Position numbers and translations under genes: made by a program. From an uncultured bacterium (lineage in GTDB: Bacteria > Patescibacteriota > Saccharimonadia > Saccharimonadales > Saccharimonadaceae): DNA of 64,000 nt. Shown here piece by piece: positions 4,990 through 44,222 of the stretch. The DNA is taken from NCBI GenBank assembly GCA_903832635.1, contig CAILCF010000001.1:186001-250000 (forward strand), in the 5' to 3' direction. The notes under the pieces are model-generated. The model saw nothing but the letters and a program-made list of their open reading frames with translations, did not search any database and was not told where the DNA came from. The first letter of the stretch is position 1. Each line of letters starts with the position of its first letter.

Positions 4990-5056
4990 AATTCCATCTA
5001 CTATCTACCATCTACCATTCGCTGTACAGCGAAACCATATAAAGTATACTAATACT

Positions 5057-6469: not shown

Positions 6470-6931
6470 ATGGACAAAGAAGAATCAGTTCAATTTGCAC
6501 AAAAATATCTTGAAGATTTACTATCTTTTTTTGGAGCCAACATTACAGTGTCTTCGACCTGCGAGGAAGACGTTATTGAACTATCGGTGCCATCAAACGA
6601 GCTTAACAGCTTGCTGATTGGACGTAACGCCGAGACCTTGCGCAGTCTGCAATATATAGTCTCGACCGTCCTACGAAGCAAAGACGCCCTTCTAACACGT
6701 GTCAACGTCGACATTGCCGACTATAAAAAGCAACGAGCCGACCGAGTCGCCGCCCAGGCTCGTGAATGGATCGAGGAAGTCAAAAAGACAGGGGATTCAA
6801 AAGTCGTCAATATGAACGCCGCCGACAGACGTATCGTCCACAAGGTTGCCAGCGAATATGGTGACATTCAGACGTTTTCCGAAGGCGAAGGCTTTGATCG
6901 CAAGCTTACGATTGCTCAAGCTGGTAGTTAG
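6470..6931 (+). CDS. jag: Jag/KhpB-like KH-R3H RNA-binding protein
   Basis: KH-like LLIGRNAETLRSLQYIV and R3H-like MNAADRRIVHKVASEYGDIQTFSEGEGFDRKL. Confidence 0.88.
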   Translation: MDKEESVQFAQKYLEDLLSFFGANITVSSTCEEDVIELSVPSNELNSLLIGRNAETLRSLQYIVSTVLRSKDALLTRVNVDIADYKKQRADRVAAQAREWIEEVKKTGDSKVVNMNAADRRIVHKVASEYGDIQTFSEGEGFDRKLTIAQAGS

Positions 6932-6997
6932 TAGTTGGTAGGTGGTATTTGGTATTGCGCAATGCAATTCTACCATCTACTATTTACCATATACCAA
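6923..6997. repeat. Degenerate heptamer array, inverted halves
   Basis: ggtagtt|agtagtt|ggtaggt|ggtattt|ggtattg ... ctaccat|ctactat|ttaccat|ataccaa, between convergent genes. Confidence 0.75.
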
Positions 6998-6998
6998 A

Positions 6999-8105
6999 TT
7001 ACGGTCTAACGTAATTTCGCACGGCGTCAATATATATACTATAGGTTTGTTTTGCCATGCGTTCCCACGAGTATTTGGCGATTTGTTTATAACCCTCGGC
7101 AATTAGGCTGTTTCGCAAACCTTCATCACTTAAAACTTCGTCAATTGCCCGGGCCATATCATCCGTATTTAGCGGGTCAAAATAGTGGGCAGCATCGTCA
7201 TAAACCTCTGGCAAGCAAGTAGCGTTACTACTAACTACCGGCGCACCGTAACCCATCGCTTCCAGTCCCGGCAACCCAAACCCCTCCATCAGCGAAGGAA
7301 AAACATAGGCCGCAGTGTTTTTATACAGCCAATCGCGCTGGGGGTTGGGCAAAAAGTCGGTAAAATGAATATTTTTATAACCCTTGCTTTCAAAGTATTT
7401 TTTGTTATTTTGGGCGCTGGCATTTATCTTTCCAACCAAAATAAGACCCAAATCAGGGTATTTTTGTAAAAGTTTCTGATGGGCATCGCCCAGTCGCTTA
7501 ATATTTTTATAATCGCTTTGTTGGCCGACGTACATAATATATCGGTTAAAAGGGTGTTCGTACGGCGTAACTTCACTGGCGAAAATATCAGCAGCTTCGG
7601 GCGTAACGGCGACTTTATCCGGGTTTAACTTTGTATCAAATTTTAACAGCTCGTTCTTCGTATATTTGCTGGGCGTAATGATAAATTTACTGGTTTTTAA
7701 AACGCGTCTGAAAACGAATCTGCCGACAAACTGTTTGAAGTGAAAAATTAGCCAACCCTTATCGGAATTATAAGTTTTTAACAGCGATAAATCGTGAAAC
7801 GTGGTAACGTGTATGCCTTTGTACCGAATCGGTTGTTGGGGCATGCAATAATGCACCAAATCCGGGTGTAGTTCGTCCAGGTAATTCTTGAATCCAATCT
7901 GTTCTGACAGCGAGTAATTGTCAAAATCAGCCACCTTAACATGAAAATTGTCGCCCGTTGGTTTCCAAAATTCTTTATCTTTGGCGCGTACTAAAACCGA
8001 ATAATTACTGACCTCATCGATTTTCTGCAAATAATGCAACAGACGCTCGACGTACATCCCCGTTGAACTATTGATAATTCTGGCATCTATCGCAATATGA
8101 CGCAT
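6999..8105 (-). CDS. Glycosyltransferase family 1/4
   Basis: FPSLMEGFGLPGLEAMGYGAPVVSSNATCLPEVYDDAAHYFDP. Confidence 0.9.
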   Translation of the reverse strand: MRHIAIDARIINSSTGMYVERLLHYLQKIDEVSNYSVLVRAKDKEFWKPTGDNFHVKVADFDNYSLSEQIGFKNYLDELHPDLVHYCMPQQPIRYKGIHVTTFHDLSLLKTYNSDKGWLIFHFKQFVGRFVFRRVLKTSKFIITPSKYTKNELLKFDTKLNPDKVAVTPEAADIFASEVTPYEHPFNRYIMYVGQQSDYKNIKRLGDAHQKLLQKYPDLGLILVGKINASAQNNKKYFESKGYKNIHFTDFLPNPQRDWLYKNTAAYVFPSLMEGFGLPGLEAMGYGAPVVSSNATCLPEVYDDAAHYFDPLNTDDMARAIDEVLSDEGLRNSLIAEGYKQIAKYSWERMAKQTYSIYIDAVRNYVRP

Positions 8106-8187
8106 CCCGTTAGAATCCCTTCCTAAGTAAAAAAAGTCCTGATGGGTATGTATGTGATTCTAAGTTGAGGATTCTAACGGGACGCAT
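8106..8187 (-). repeat. Palindromic start-codon element, locus 1 (encodes 25-aa uORF MRPVRILNLESHTYPSGLFLLRKGF*)
   Basis: CCCGTTAGAATCC 8106-8118 / GGATTCTAACGGG 8169-8181 perfect 13-bp inverted repeat; ATGCGTC on both sides. Confidence 0.75.
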
Positions 8188-9930: not shown

Positions 9931-10864
9931 TAGTGTTACTTTCCTCGATGTAATAAAGCGGGCGCTGTTTGACCTCTTTAAAAATTCGGCCGATATATTC
10001 ACCGATTACACCCAGCGATAGCAGTTGGACGCCGCCCAAAAACAGCACAACTGCCATCAGTGACGGATAGCCGGCAACGGTATCGCCAAACATAGCAGCT
10101 TTAATAATTACCCAAAAAAGGTAAATAAATGCAGAGACTGAAATTATTACGCCGAAAAACGAAGAAATTCGCAGTGGTGTCGTCGAAAACGAAGTAATCC
10201 CGTCGATTGCCAAATTAATTAGTTTTCGATAGTTTTGTTTAACTTCACCGGCTGCGCGTGGGTCGCGGTCGTAGGTGATTTCTTTTTTCTTGAAACCAAC
10301 CCAGCTGAACATGCCTTTGGTGTAGCGTTCGGATTCGCGTAGTTTTTTCAAGGCTTCAACACAACGTCGGTCTAATAACCGGAAATCACCGGTATTTCGG
10401 GGGATTTTTATCAGTTGACCCTGAGTCATTTTGTTCAACAGCCAATAATAAGTATTGGCGGTCACTATCTTTATCCAAGTTTCACCCTCGCGACTACTGC
10501 GCTTGGCATAAACGTCGTCATAGCCTTCTTCCCAGAACTTAATCATCTTTGGAATCAATTCCGGCGGATCCTGCAAATCAGCGTCGATAATTACCGTCGC
10601 ATCACCCGTAACGTGGTCCAATCCGGCAATCATGCCGATTTCTTTGCCAAAATTACGTGACAAACTGACATATTTTACTCGGTCGTCTTTTTTGGCGTAA
10701 TCTTTGATTATCTGTAGGGTTTTATCCTTGCTGCCGTCATCAGCAAACAAAAACTCAAATGCATACGATTTATTATCATTAGCTAGTTTACCAATACGTT
10801 GGTACAGGTGTTCTAAAACTTCTTGCTCGTTATAAGCGGGGATTAAAATACTAATTTTTTTCAT
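9902..10864 (-). CDS. GtrB/DPM1-like GT2 glycosyltransferase
   Basis: ISILIPAYNEQEVLEHLYQRI...DADLQDPPELIPKM...GVIGEYIGRIFKEVKQRPLY. Confidence 0.92.
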   Translation of the reverse strand: MKKISILIPAYNEQEVLEHLYQRIGKLANDNKSYAFEFLFADDGSKDKTLQIIKDYAKKDDRVKYVSLSRNFGKEIGMIAGLDHVTGDATVIIDADLQDPPELIPKMIKFWEEGYDDVYAKRSSREGETWIKIVTANTYYWLLNKMTQGQLIKIPRNTGDFRLLDRRCVEALKKLRESERYTKGMFSWVGFKKKEITYDRDPRAAGEVKQNYRKLINLAIDGITSFSTTPLRISSFFGVIISVSAFIYLFWVIIKAAMFGDTVAGYPSLMAVVLFLGGVQLLSLGVIGEYIGRIFKEVKQRPLYYIEESNTSEKSDKKVR

Positions 10865-10970
10865 CCCGTTAGAGCTCCTTAGTTAATTTATTGTTACGAA
10901 TAGCCGTCAGTTCTATTATTATCCTTGCGCTATACCTACAAGTATCAATAAGAGCTCTAACGGAATTCAT
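10865..10970 (-). repeat. Palindromic start-codon element, locus 2 (33-aa uORF MNSVRALIDTCRYSARIIIELTAIRNNKLTKEL*)
   Basis: CCGTTAGAGCTC 10866-10877 / GAGCTCTAACGG 10952-10963; ATG-to-ATG length 106 bp. Confidence 0.78.
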
Positions 10971-10992
10971 CAGTACTAGTATAACGCAAGAT

Positions 10993-11092
10993 GGTAGTTT
11001 GTAGGTAGTAGTTGGTATCTGGTTTAGCACTAACCGATTTTGCCATCTACCACATACTATCTACTATTTACCACCTACCACCTACTATCCGC
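10993..11092. repeat. Degenerate heptamer array, inverted halves
   Basis: ggtagtt|tgtaggt|agtagtt|ggtatct ... ccatcta|ccacata|ctatcta|ctattta|ccaccta|ccaccta. Confidence 0.75.
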
Positions 11093-30200: not shown

Positions 30201-31046
30201 TCAGAGATACTCGCCATAACCGGATTTTTTGAGAGGTTCGGCAAGTTCAGACAGTTGGGTTTTATCAATAAAACCTTCTTTATATGCAGCTAGTTCGGGG
30301 CTACCGATTATTTGACCGGTTCGGGTTTGAACGACACGGATGTAGTCAGCAGCGTCAGTCATACTGTTAATTGTCCCGGTGTCAAGCCAAACATCGCCTT
30401 CATCAAGTGTTGTGACAGACAACTTTCCGCGGTTTAGATATTCTTCGTTGACTGCGGTAATTTCTAGTTCACCACGCGCGCTTGGTTTGATGGTTTTCGC
30501 AATTTGAATGACGTCATTGTCATAAAAATATAAACCGACAACTGCATAATTAGATTTCGGATTTGCGGGTTTTTCTTCGATAGAAAGTGCCTTGCCATTG
30601 CCATCGAGTTCAACTACGCCATAACTTTTTGGATCTGAAACTTCGTATGCAAATACAATTCCACCATCTGGGTCAGAGCATTTTTTTAGCGATTCGCTTA
30701 GTCTGTGACCGTGGAATATATTGTCGCCAAGTATCAATGCTACTTTGTCATTACCAATAAAATCCTCGCCAATAATAAATGCCTGAGCCAATCCGTCGGG
30801 GGAAGGCTGAACTGCATATTGCAGGTTAATACCCCACTGCGACCCGTCGCCAAGCAGGCGCTGAAATTGCGATTGATCATCAAGCGTGGTGATTATCAGA
30901 ATGTCATTAATATTGGCAGAAATCAGAGTTGTCAGCGGGTAATATATCATCGGCTTGTCATAAATTGGCATAATTTGTTTGCTAATTCCTTTTGTAATCG
31001 GCCAAAGCCTTGTTCCTGAACCGCCTGCTAGAATAATACCTTTCAT
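30201..31046 (-). CDS. rmlA: Glucose-1-phosphate thymidylyltransferase (start revised to 31046)
   Basis: [38 protein letters not shown]. Confidence 0.95.
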
Positions 31047-31152
31047 CCCGTTAGAGCTCCTTTGATAGTTTATCGTTAGCAATAATAATTCGTTTTATTC
31101 GCATATATATTAGATTTAAGTAAGTATATTGAAAAGTTCTAACGGGATTCAT
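31047..31152 (-). repeat. Palindromic start-codon element, locus 3 (33-aa u[36 protein letters not shown])
   Basis: CCCGTTAGAGCT 31047-31058 / AGTTCTAACGGG 31135-31146; ATG-to-ATG length 106 bp; ends homologous to locus 2. Confidence 0.78.
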
Positions 31153-31430
31153 ACTAGAGCTCCTTTAAAATATTCTTTAATTCTATTGTTAACATATCTT
31201 TTACCCATTCCTGTTTTTAAATAACGCTCTCTGGCAAAAGCATCTTTTTTATTCAAACTGGCTTCGTAATAGATAAGTTCATATGGACCACGACCCTTTG
31301 TGTATGGGCTTTTGCCTTCATTATGTTCAGCAAATCTTTTACGTAAGTCAGACGTACATCCAGTATACCAATTATTGCTCTTCAAGCTCTTGAGCACATA
31401 AACATAATGGAAAGCTCTAACGGGATTCAT
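31149..31430 (-). CDS. GIY-YIG domain endonuclease, with ends matching the palindromic elements
   Basis: YVYVLKSLKSNNWYTGCTSDLRKRFAEHNEGKSPYTKGRGPYELIYYEASLNKKDAFARERYLKTGMGKRYVNNRIKEYF; starts ATGAATCCCGTTAGAGC. Confidence 0.92.
   Translation of the reverse strand: MNPVRAFHYVYVLKSLKSNNWYTGCTSDLRKRFAEHNEGKSPYTKGRGPYELIYYEASLNKKDAFARERYLKTGMGKRYVNNRIKEYFKGALV
31149..31430 (-). mobile_element. Candidate autonomous copy of the CCCGTTAGA/TCTAACGGG element family carrying the GIY-YIG gene
   Basis: ATGAATC on both sides; begins ATGAATCCCGTTAGAGC, ends AAAGGAGCTCTA; sits between rmlCD stop and rmlA start. Confidence 0.5.
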
Positions 31431-32901
31431 CCCTTTGCCTCCCTTCTTTTTCTAAATAATTTTTCAACGATTTTCGCCAATCAGTTGGGACAAAGCCCGT
31501 AGTCTTTATTTTATCAAGATTTAAGGTGCTTTGTAATGGCCGCGGTGATATGTATGATTTACCTTCGTAATATTGTTCGGTTGAAACACCTGTGACTTCA
31601 TCGCGACTGTGACCGGACAGTTCGTAAACGTCAGCTGCAATGTTAGCCCAACTGACAGATTCGCCATCGCCGGATATGTTATAGGTGCCATATGGTAGGT
31701 GGTAGGTGGTAGGTGGTAGGTGGCCAGCAGTTGGAGGATAGGAAATGGGAGTAAGCAGGTGTTTGATTCCTCGCGCCAAATCGTCCGTAAAGGTAAGTCG
31801 GCCGACTTGGTCATTGACGACATTTGGTTTGACGCCTTTTTCGGCAAGTGATTGCATAGTTCTAACAAAGTTGTTACCATCGCCAATTACCCAACTAGCG
31901 CGGGCAATATAATGTTTCGGGACCATAGCAGCGGCAATATCACCGGCTGCCTTGGTTTGGGCATAAACTCCAAGCGGACTGAACGTTTCGCTTTCGTTAT
32001 GCTCGGCTTTGGTACCGTCAAATACATAATCACTGGAAACGTGAACAAGTGTAATGCTGTGTTTGGTAGCAATTTTCCCAAGGTTGGCAACAGCTTCAGC
32101 GTTTAGTTTCCAAGCAGCTTCGCGACCTTCGGGGGTTTCTGCCAAATCGACAGCAGTGTAGGCTGCGACGTTGATAATTGTTTCGTATTGACGCCATGGT
32201 CTGGCATTTTCAAGTTCCGGGCTGGTAATATCCAGTTCCTGATAGTCCGTAAATTCGGCATCAGGAAATTCAATTTGCAAGGCACGACCTAATTGGCCGT
32301 TCGAGCCGGTTATAAGCGTTCGTTTTGGCTTCATTGGCACAACTTCGGACAGACGAGGATGGATCTTATCCTTGTCAGATAGTTCTGCCTGGTCAAGTGG
32401 AATTGGCCAATCGACGGCCACCGTTTCGTCAGCAAGGTTCAGAAATGTGTAATCTGCGTCTGCGCTCCAGTGGTCATTAACCAAATAAGTGTATACCGTG
32501 TTTTCTTCCAGTGCCTGAAAACCGTTTCCAACACCGCGAGGAGCAAATACTGCCTTGGTTGGATCAAGTTCGGCGGTGAAAACCTTGCCGAAACTATCAC
32601 CCTGACGTAAATCGACCCAGGCGCCAAAAATTCGTCCAGACCCGACTGAAATAAATTTATCCCATGGCTCAGCGTGGATACCGCGGGTTACTCCTAATTC
32701 GGCATTAAAAGAGATATTGTTTTGGACAACATCAAATTCCGGTAGGCCAAGTTTGGTCATTTTTTCCTGCTGATAATTTTCCTTGAACCAGCCGCGCGAA
32801 TCGCCATGAACCGGTAAATCAGCAATCAAAAGACCGGGAATTGGCGTTTCATGAAAAGCCAGAACTTTTTCGAATTCAAGCTCGCCTTTTTCAATAGTCA
32901 T
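31417..32901 (-). CDS. rmlCD: Fused dTDP-4-dehydrorhamnose 3,5-epimerase / dTDP-4-dehydrorhamnose reductase (start revised to 32901)
   Basis: RmlC-like HGDSRGWFKENYQ...RGIHAEPWDKFISVGSGRIFGAWVDLR; RmlD-like RTLITGSNGQLGRALQIEF...INVAAYTAVDLAE...VSSDYVFDGTK. Confidence 0.92.
   Translation of the reverse strand: MTIEKGELEFEKVLAFHETPIPGLLIADLPVHGDSRGWFKENYQQEKMTKLGLPEFDVVQNNISFNAELGVTRGIHAEPWDKFISVGSGRIFGAWVDLRQGDSFGKVFTAELDPTKAVFAPRGVGNGFQALEENTVYTYLVNDHWSADADYTFLNLADETVAVDWPIPLDQAELSDKDKIHPRLSEVVPMKPKRTLITGSNGQLGRALQIEFPDAEFTDYQELDITSPELENARPWRQYETIINVAAYTAVDLAETPEGREAAWKLNAEAVANLGKIATKHSITLVHVSSDYVFDGTKAEHNESETFSPLGVYAQTKAAGDIAAAMVPKHYIARASWVIGDGNNFVRTMQSLAEKGVKPNVVNDQVGRLTFTDDLARGIKHLLTPISYPPTAGHLPPTTYHLPYGTYNISGDGESVSWANIAADVYELSGHSRDEVTGVSTEQYYEGKSYISPRPLQSTLNLDKIKTTGFVPTDWRKSLKNYLEKEGRQRDESR
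31694..31758. repeat. Heptamer array inside rmlD: four perfect GGTAGGT copies (31694-31721) followed by degenerate units
   Basis: ggtaggt x4 then ...ggaggat|aggaaat|gggagta. Confidence 0.9.
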
Positions 32902-34945: not shown

Positions 34946-34971
34946 CGGTTGTTTATTGTAACACGGGAAAT

Positions 34972-35006
34972 AGTAGGTGGTATATGGTAGGTAGTAGATG
35001 GTATGG
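34972..35006. repeat. Heptamer array, GGTAGGT class
   Basis: agtaggt|ggtatat|ggtaggt|agtagat|ggtatgg. Confidence 0.8.
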
Positions 35007-36084: not shown

Positions 36085-36089
36085 TTTCT

Positions 36090-36124
36090 GGTAATTGGTA
36101 GGTAGTATATGGTAGGTAGTAAGG
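36090..36124. repeat. Heptamer array, GGTAGGT class
   Basis: ggtaatt|ggtaggt|agtatat|ggtaggt|agtaagg. Confidence 0.8.
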
Positions 36125-39696: not shown

Positions 39697-39701
39697 CGCT
39701 T

Positions 39702-39768
39702 GGTAGGTGGTAGATAGTATATGGTAAATAGTAGGGGCCAATAGCCAATAGCTGCATTCCAAATGCCA
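39702..39768. repeat. Heptamer array, mixed classes
   Basis: ggtaggt|ggtagat|agtatat|ggtaaat|agtaggg then ccaatag|ccaatag|ctgcatt|ccaaatg|ccaaact. Confidence 0.8.
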
Positions 39769-42805: not shown

Positions 42806-42889
42806 TGGGATAGGGAGTGGGGGTTGGGAAATGGGAAATTGGAGTGGCTGGCTGTAGGTGGTATATAGTAGGTGGTAGATGGCGGATAG
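42806..42889. repeat. Composite heptamer array, GGGAAAT class then TAGGTGG class
   Basis: tgggata|gggagtg|ggggttg|ggaaatg|ggaaatt|ggagtgg ... taggtgg|tatatag|taggtgg|tagatgg|cggatag. Confidence 0.8.
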
Positions 42890-44222
42890 AAAAAATCAAA
42901 ATTCGATTGGGACACCGGGCAAGATATATATTGGTATTCTGGCTGTTATATTTGGTGGAATAGTTATTCATGCCCCACTTACCGTAGCAATTGGGACGCT
43001 GTGGCCTAATTATGACCTATTGATTAAATCTTGGAAAGAAATACTGATGCTGGTTGCGGGACTGCTGGCACTTTATTTAATGTATGAATCCGGTCAAATG
43101 AAAAAAATACTTCGTGATCCGATTATCTATTTGATTGCTGGGTATGCATTATTACATCTGTTATTGATGTTTTTCATGAACCAAGGACCTTCCGCAAGCT
43201 TTGCAGGGCTGGCGATTGATTTACGGTTTGTGCTGTACTTTGCACTGGTTTATATCGCAATGACTTTGTATCCGAGATATCGGAAAATGTTTATCAAAAT
43301 CGGTATCGGTGGGGCGCTGGTCGTGTTGGTTTTTGCCCTGTTGCAAGTGTTTATTTTACCTAACGATGTTTTGAAATATTTAGGCTACAACGTGAATACG
43401 ATTAGCCCATATTTGACTATCGATAAAAACCAGGCGTTTATTCGGATAAACAGCACGCTTAGGGGACCAAATCCGTTAGGAGCATATGCCGGTATTGTTT
43501 TGACCCTACTTACGGCATGGACTGCAAAGAAAAAAGTTGATAAAAAAAGGTGGCCACTGACAGTTTTTGTAATTCTACTGGTAGGTGCAGTCGTAACATT
43601 ATGGGCTAGCTATTCTCGCAGTGCTCAGACTGGCACGGCTATCGCCATTGCTATAGTGCTTGCCGTCACGTTTTGGCATAAATTATCTACAAAAATGTGG
43701 CTAATAATAGGTATTTTGTTTGTTATTGCAGCTGGCGGGTTATTTATGGCTCGCAATACCTCTTTTATTTCTAATGTCGTATTGCATGAAAATCCAAATG
43801 GCGGAAGTAGTGTTAATTCAAACGAGGGGCATATCAGTTCAATTAACGATAGTTTTTCTCAATTATTAAAACAACCGTTAGGGGCAGGGCTTGGGAGCAC
43901 GGGCAGTGCGTCCTTACTGGGTAAAAACGCGGAAATTATTGAAAATCAGTATCTGTTGGTTGCTCATGAAGCAGGGTGGCTGGGGTTGGCGTTATTTGTA
44001 TCAATATTTGCAGCGGTTATGACCAGATTATGGAAACTACGAAAAGATTGGCTGGCACTGGGAGTGTTTGCCATCGGTATCGGGCTGGCGGTTGTTGGGC
44101 TATTTTTACCGGTTTGGACCGACGACACTGTTTCAATCATTTGGTGGGGGTTGGCGGCAGTCGTGGTAGGTAGTAGATTGTATATAGTAGATAGTAAAGG
44201 TGATAAAAAGCATGGCAAGTAG
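42879..44222 (+). CDS. O-antigen ligase/polymerase-like membrane protein
   Basis: Many TM segments; RGPNPLGAYAGIVLTLLTAW and LGAGLGSTGSASLLG...ENQYLLVAHEAGWLGLALFV. Confidence 0.82.
   Translation: MADRKNQNSIGTPGKIYIGILAVIFGGIVIHAPLTVAIGTLWPNYDLLIKSWKEILMLVAGLLALYLMYESGQMKKILRDPIIYLIAGYALLHLLLMFFMNQGPSASFAGLAIDLRFVLYFALVYIAMTLYPRYRKMFIKIGIGGALVVLVFALLQVFILPNDVLKYLGYNVNTISPYLTIDKNQAFIRINSTLRGPNPLGAYAGIVLTLLTAWTAKKKVDKKRWPLTVFVILLVGAVVTLWASYSRSAQTGTAIAIAIVLAVTFWHKLSTKMWLIIGILFVIAAGGLFMARNTSFISNVVLHENPNGGSSVNSNEGHISSINDSFSQLLKQPLGAGLGSTGSASLLGKNAEIIENQYLLVAHEAGWLGLALFVSIFAAVMTRLWKLRKDWLALGVFAIGIGLAVVGLFLPVWTDDTVSIIWWGLAAVVVGSRLYIVDSKGDKKHGK
44165..44199. repeat. Heptamer array encoding the C-terminus of the O-antigen ligase-like CDS
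   Basis: ggtaggt|agtagat|tgtatat|agtagat|agtaaag. Confidence 0.8.

Follow-up and report, generated by a model that had tools for sequence, protein, structure and literature searches.

Immediately upstream of rmlA, in the genome of an uncultured member of the Saccharimonadaceae, lie a gene for a small GIY-YIG nuclease and a minigene with palindromic ends. Their position raises the question of whether they are members of the operon or mobile DNA that settled there and, in the latter case, which enzyme moves them. An earlier note on this DNA took the two inserts for a candidate undescribed mobile element, namely an autonomous form carrying the nuclease and a derivative resembling a miniature inverted-repeat transposable element (MITE). 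The 64,000-nucleotide stretch of DNA that was analysed is referred to as the window.

The tandem insertion at rmlA

The arrangement described in the earlier note is confirmed. On the minus strand, between rmlCD and rmlA, a GIY-YIG open reading frame (ORF) is followed by a short, palindrome-ended insert (Table 1). The sequence ATGAATCCCGTTAGA is present exactly twice in the window (31416-31430 and 31138-31152); when up to two mismatches are allowed it has five matches against 0.16 expected, a number reached in none of 100 shuffles. The short element is complete, with one mismatch between its two repeats. The nuclease copy is damaged at its right end, where AGCTCTAGT stands in place of AGCTCTAACGGG and AGCTCTA is followed by GT. 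The tandem is thus made up of a short element that is complete and a nuclease element without part of its right repeat.

The reading frame of the window nuclease opens at the start codon that the rmlA site had originally, and its TGA stop overlaps the next ATG (ATGA). The ATG of rmlA consists of the last base of the short element, A, and the TG of the duplicated target. The flanks had been described as ATGAA(TC), but the duplicated unit is the 4-bp TGAA, the A of the rebuilt ATG being the last base of the element; five flanking base pairs match in only 2 of 148 elements. Outside the terminal repeats, the likeness that had also been proposed for the two ORFs does not exceed chance, as 102 of 1000 shuffles reach the score of the left part and 655 of 1000 that of the right. 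An origin of the short form by internal deletion of the long one was considered and dropped, because similarity inside the repeats is at chance level. In other respects the reading of the inserts as mobile DNA is supported, all the checks proposed in the earlier note having turned out favourably.

Table 1. Positions of the inserts, their parts and other repeats (window coordinates, or locus handles for copies in other genomes)
Feature	Position	Strand	Remark
GIY-YIG nuclease ORF, 93 aa, MNPVR...	31149..31430	-	PF01541 E = 1.1e-14; nearest solved structures UPF0213 and SLX1
Left target duplication TGAA, nuclease element	31426..31429	-	4-bp duplication rule
Left 13-bp terminal inverted repeat TCCCGTTAGAGCT, nuclease element	31413..31425	-	
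AGCTCTA, remnant of right terminal repeat, nuclease element	31155..31161	-	outer ACGGGA lost
Short gene-less element (MITE-like)	31046..31147	-	left repeat TCCCGTTAGAACT 31135-31147, right repeat AGCTCTAACGGGA 31046-31058
Left target duplication TGAA, short element	31148..31151	-	
Right target duplication TGAA, short element	31042..31045	-	rmlA coding positions 2-5
33-aa upstream ORF through short element	31051..31152	-	ends at TAA inside right repeat
rmlA (glucose-1-phosphate thymidylyltransferase)	30201..31046	-	named by sequence
Second short element, start codon of glycosyltransferase-like gene	10860..10969	-	repeats 10953-10965, 10864-10876; duplication TGAA
Third short element, start codon of glycosyltransferase-like gene	8101..8186	-	repeats 8170-8182, 8105-8117; duplication TGCG
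Structured 60-73 bp copies	L193, L200, L208, L233, L240, L241, L270, L273, L342-L345, L347, L350-L352		
CCACCTA-type repeat sites	4994-5017, 6922-6952, 10992-11087, 31693-31723, 34971-35001, 36089-36112, 39701-39717, 42859-42882, 44164-44180		

Element-free orthologous sites, which the earlier note had suggested looking for, exist in five genomes of the genus (G004, G010, G023, G006 and G021), where the end of rmlCD runs to ATGAAAGG without an element. The filled loci of the genus are those of G000, G024 and G007, and a nuclease element is found at rmlA in G049 and in a Saccharibacteria genome (QWHN) as well. In G007 a nuclease 76% identical to the window copy lies beside a short element; the left repeat of this nuclease copy is not recognisable. 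Comparison of the G000 and G007 nucleases gives a dN of 0.15 with saturated synonymous sites, which indicates that the rmlA nuclease is constrained, though the ends of the site are damaged in both genomes. The joint presence of nuclease and short element in G007 is what one would expect if the GIY-YIG gene and its leader simply belonged to rmlA. With five rmlA loci of the genus lacking both, and the same elements standing at many other genes, such a fixed operon membership is already refuted as a general account and has next to no probability.

The retention of the rmlA nuclease despite a damaged repeat, the right one in G000 and the left one in G007 (L355; window 31149-31430), may mark it as an immobile resident source acting in trans. 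Two more short elements lie in the window (Table 1), and the same genome carries another short copy outside it, at the start codon of a tsaD-like gene. The window also holds a second dispersed repeat, a 7-base unit CCACCTA with variants, which has 22 matches with up to three mismatches against 0.08 expected, mostly near gene ends; one such array is situated inside the rmlCD reading frame (HLPPTTYHLPYG).

Ends, target duplications and start codons

The ends of 148 elements form a 13-bp inverted repeat of almost perfect complementarity, YCCCGTTAGA plus three covarying bases (Y CCCGTTAGA NNN). Its outermost base and its last three differ among elements and match between both ends of one element. 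At position 11, 71 of 73 nuclease elements are paired against 27.5 expected, with essentially no G-T pairs, and from position 12 on the pairing of the ends is at chance level or near it. The terminal triplet is clustered on the nuclease tree (24 changes against 35.8 in shuffles); this clustering follows from linkage and constitutes no proof of recognition.

An exact 4-bp direct repeat flanks 90 of the 148 elements, compared with a mean of 34 and a maximum of 46 in shuffled flanks. Targets that do not start with TG have exact duplications in 21 of 48 cases, against a shuffled maximum of 11. The duplicated targets are TGAA (58), TGAG (7), TTTA (5), TAAA (4), TTCA (4), TTGA (3) and others. Such matched terminal inverted repeats, a target duplication of fixed length and empty orthologous sites are what identifies a DNA transposon. 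In the other 58 elements the two flanking tetramers are unequal, mostly at the middle two bases, which a simple staggered-cut model does not predict. Within tetramer pairs that have one or two mismatches, 48 of 60 mismatches concern the middle bases, and random pairing of flanks looks similar, so that the unequal flanks resemble two independent TNNA tetramers rather than one decayed copy. A 2-bp crossover, the first impression given by the middle-base mismatches, remains an idea in view of that similarity. In one subgroup of short elements (L198, L279, L281, L066, L067, L069, L080) the left end is preceded not by a copy of the right target but by tetramers resembling CTTG or CCTG (ACYTGT or something close to it).

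Many of the insertions coincide with start codons. An ATG is found at the right end of 51 of 76 nuclease elements, a set not selected by flank, and 46 of these ATGs open an ORF of 60 codons or more. For the short elements recovered with both ends and turned to their better orientation, 37 of 76 have a right-end ATG and 34 of 76 start such an ORF. The last element base is A in 97 of 148 cases, which together with the duplicated TG gives ATG; elements with C:G ends give GTG. In 53 of 69 elements (TGA 45, TAA 8) the nuclease stop codon is placed right at the duplication's first base, usually as an ATGA overlap with the host gene, and is thus supplied by the target. Read in frame from the host ATG, the nuclease ORF is uninterrupted in 31 of 41 cases. 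Judged by their first residues, the genes downstream look like topA, tsaD, rplI, rplE, nusA, typA, pyrG, murC, ychF and others. Of 42 short elements, 19 have an open upstream ORF where 4.2 would be expected, a figure that related copies inflate.

The nuclease, its distribution and competing explanations

Nuclease elements mostly measure ~263-303 bp between their CCCG borders and contain a single ORF, encoding a GIY-YIG protein of ~86-94 aa. The window nuclease falls within the GIY-YIG superfamily by its PF01541 match (Table 1). Residues Y11, Y22, G24, R32, H36, E68 and N82 are invariant across 65-66 aligned nucleases; the catalytic residues are Y11, Y22, R32, E68 and N82. Judged from its codons, the nuclease is under purifying selection (median dN/dS 0.19 over 200 pairs). 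The AlphaFold model is a confident single domain (mean pLDDT 88.9), and no separate DNA-binding domain is obvious in the protein. A profile search against solved structures retrieved 1zg2 (E = 7.9e-12), 1ywl and then SLX1 (7wme, E = 3.8e-4). Foldseek, given the predicted fold, likewise placed 1zg2 first and Slx1 next; UvrC and I-TevI match less well. SLX1 cuts branched DNA, an activity that fits ends that could extrude as a cruciform.

The ends recur in other genomes, often in many copies, as the earlier note had anticipated. The right end followed by ATG (TCTAACGGGATG) is found in 7 of 60 relatives, in 5 of 28 genomes within the genus and in 34 of 290 members of the phylum, with up to 19 copies per genome; its distribution is patchy, and the reversed pattern is near zero. 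A two-ended pattern, applied to 12 genomes picked for having the right end, recovered 120 complete short elements in all 12, and its reverse none. The gene-less copies span 31-126 bp, with frequent lengths of 98-101, 76-79 and 63 bp. Like MITEs, they are small and non-coding and have the same ends as a coding element of the same genome. Since the copies of a single genome have mostly diverged from one another, the elements may be moving slowly or may have moved long ago. No excised or circular form, fresh insertion or difference between near-identical strains was observed.

GIY-YIG matches as such are common, occurring in 196 of 290 sampled genomes. A profile of 16 nucleases yielded 418 relatives in named genomes, of which the best 80 were examined for flanking repeats. 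In 75 of these 80 the ORF is bracketed by an inverted repeat, and 73 cleanly anchored cases were used for statistics. The best 80 are mostly from Patescibacteria; some lie on contigs assigned to Omnitrophota, Planctomycetota and other groups, several of which are short and may have been misbinned. Across the phylum sample the right end is carried by 12 of 13 genomes with a strong nuclease match against 22 of 277 others (p = 1e-11), and in the genus a close nuclease is present in 4 of 5 genomes with the ends against 0 of 23 without (p = 2.4e-4). The earlier expectations that the nearest GIY-YIG ORFs would be flanked by these ends, and that element presence would track the nuclease, are thus borne out. 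The two findings that would have spoken against mobility, a pair fixed at every rmlA and ends without further copies, were not encountered. Repeats, duplications, patchy multi-copy spread, empty sites and linkage of nuclease and ends are all present as sequence signatures, and from them we conclude with high confidence that these insertions represent a transposon-like mobile family across Patescibacteria.

The explanation that we consider quite probable for the whole is that of a tiny DNA transposon family with the GIY-YIG nuclease as its transposase. We infer the catalytic part of the nuclease, along with the cutting mechanism, the mobilisation in trans and the translational coupling. A full element of ~280 bp would consist of a single ORF, for the ~90-aa endonuclease, framed by two 13-bp terminal inverted repeats, while the copies without an ORF would probably be moved in trans. 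The SLX1-related nuclease would bind or fold the matched ends and cut both the borders of the element and a TNNA target, preferably TGAA, after which host ligation and repair would produce the 4-bp duplication. Since TGAA lies within ATGAA and the last element base is usually A, insertion at a start codon rebuilds an ATG behind the element. Translation of the nuclease ORF would begin at the start codon of the host gene itself and end at the stop provided by the duplicated target (ATGA overlap); the host gene would thereby stay translatable, as we propose, by reinitiation.

A different division of labour is conceivable, in which the transposons are real but the GIY-YIG protein is an accessory, for branched-DNA resolution or end protection, and another transposase of the host or of an element acts in trans on the YCCCGTTAGA ends. 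Duplications of 4 bp are typical of DDE enzymes, the short copies demonstrate that the ends alone suffice in cis, and G020 (71% complete) has four right ends with no nuclease detected. We nevertheless regard this alternative as unlikely. In G214 and G133, every exact-repeat pair is a short element or an interval of ~270-370 bp enclosing the nuclease, and neither genome has a larger element with these ends or another transposase between them. In 75 of 80 relatives the ends enclose this nuclease, whose catalytic residues are invariant, and its association with the elements is the highly significant one given above. Of three conventional families, DDE_Tnp_1, Y1_Tnp and resolvase, none is common to all element-rich genomes: they are absent from 9, 4 and 6 of 10 element-bearing genomes, respectively, and G214, G133, G182 and G132 are without all three. 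A classical DDE insertion sequence was accordingly rejected, the GIY-YIG gene being the sole ORF, as was an IS607-like serine recombinase element, no resolvase-family ORF being found inside.

Free-standing GIY-YIG homing endonucleases suggest a further route, ectopic homing, whereby the nuclease would only cut start-codon-like targets and the element would be copied in by double-strand-break repair. The GIY-YIG enzymes of phages and introns spread in this way, and imperfect duplications are compatible with a repair process. Precise ends, 4-bp duplications and gene-less copies are instead features of transposons, and homology-directed homing is unavailable to insertions in unrelated genes without common flanks, which makes this route improbable. 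A homing endonuclease or group I intron was also rejected, as Rfam finds no intron family in 20 loci and the target genes are diverse. The same 20 loci, which have unusual flanks, contain only two tRNAs, both on one contig, and structured RNA genes were not taken as the target. Carriage by phages, plasmids or viruses was discarded because no relative turned up in viral contigs, phages or plasmids.

The short elements might alternatively be REP-like structural repeats for gene regulation or mRNA structure, with a host nuclease beside some of them by chance. In the 63-bp copies there are indeed two additional hairpin arms that covary strongly, with 12 pairs altered on both sides and 26 such cells where shuffles give 6.7; this points to folded DNA or RNA, and the upstream ORFs are open more often than expected. 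The nuclease, however, lies between the same ends and not beside them, duplications and empty sites show insertion, and the spread is patchy within one genus. We therefore give this reading very little credence, although a regulatory role of the short elements could be added to mobility. Copies of 60-73 bp occur in several unrelated families of the candidate phyla radiation (CPR), with two hairpin arms or longer GC-rich arms that differ in sequence and conserve their pairing (Table 1).

Known systems and related families

The proposed transposon recalls several known systems without coinciding with any of them. As with MITEs and their DDE partners, short gene-less copies have terminal inverted repeats in common with a longer coding copy and make a duplication of fixed length; here, in contrast, no DDE transposase is encoded by the longer copy, whose single gene specifies a ~90-aa GIY-YIG protein, and the whole element is only ~280 bp. 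REP/RAYT and IS200/IS605 systems similarly combine a tiny enzyme and palindromic ends with many small non-coding relatives. The comparison with RAYT/REP made in the earlier note holds as logic only, and membership in either group was rejected: the element has no HUH Y1 transposase, four element-rich genomes lack Y1_Tnp altogether, and 4-bp duplications are present, whereas IS200/IS605 elements make no target duplications. I-TevI-type homing endonucleases have the GIY-YIG catalytic core and an association with mobile DNA, but unrelated target genes, inverted repeats, duplications, intron-free loci and a weak fold match set the present elements apart. Closest in both sequence and predicted fold are UPF0213/COG2827 and SLX1; the matched proteins are annotated as hypothetical or as a host repair nuclease, and none is described as a transposon gene.

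To our knowledge, DNA transposases are DDE, HUH, tyrosine, serine or Cas1 enzymes, and we know of no transposon class that relies on a GIY-YIG enzyme. Searches of the open full text of PubMed Central found no earlier account of such elements, though one may exist elsewhere. We think it likely, if a little less so than the transposase role itself, that the family represents an undescribed class whose sole element-encoded recombination enzyme is a ~90-aa SLX1-like GIY-YIG nuclease. At ~280 bp its members would be among the smallest autonomous transposons. They would use TNNA targets and start-codon sites, take over the host translation start, drive gene-less and cruciform-forming copies across the CPR and belong to a larger superfamily with different ends.

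Insertions in CPR rRNA genes offer a possible link to published data. GIY-YIG ORFs have been reported there in insertions that qualify as introns of neither group I nor group II, along with many short insertions without an ORF, and GIY-YIG was judged to stand outside a homing context (PMC11270868). The available portion of that account does not mention terminal repeats, duplications or a transposon nature (PMC11270868). The rRNA insertions may be the same elements. GIY-YIG genes are also counted as moving elements among the mobile endonucleases of chlorella viruses, which occur with or without introns and for which the text does not mention inverted repeats (PMC4468942).

If the proposal is correct, a GIY-YIG enzyme as sole transposase would add a chemistry to those used in transposition and lie at the lower size limit of an autonomous transposon. 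It would help to explain the abundance of GIY-YIG genes in the very small CPR genomes, where mobile DNA could persist by landing on start codons such that translation even of essential genes can go on. Whether the GIY-YIG insertions and the short ORF-less ones in CPR rRNA genes, so far unexplained, are these elements becomes a testable question. With its defined ends and short target, so compact an enzyme might also prove a useful tool.

More distant nucleases suggest that the family has relatives. A significant inverted repeat accompanies 32 of 73 of them, equally long and of other sequence (for example CCCCGTAGAGAAATTTAGGA, CCGGGTAGTGAAAGTTTGAT and GCCACACCTCTTAGCTTT), so the YCCCGTTAGA elements look like one branch of a larger group. 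No significant inverted repeat was detected for the other 41 of the 73, some of which may be ordinary host genes. GIY-YIG genes within long inverted repeats of quite different sequence, several of them next to TATG or ATG (L099, L102, L105, L109, L314, L324-L326, L334), are likely to represent sister element families.
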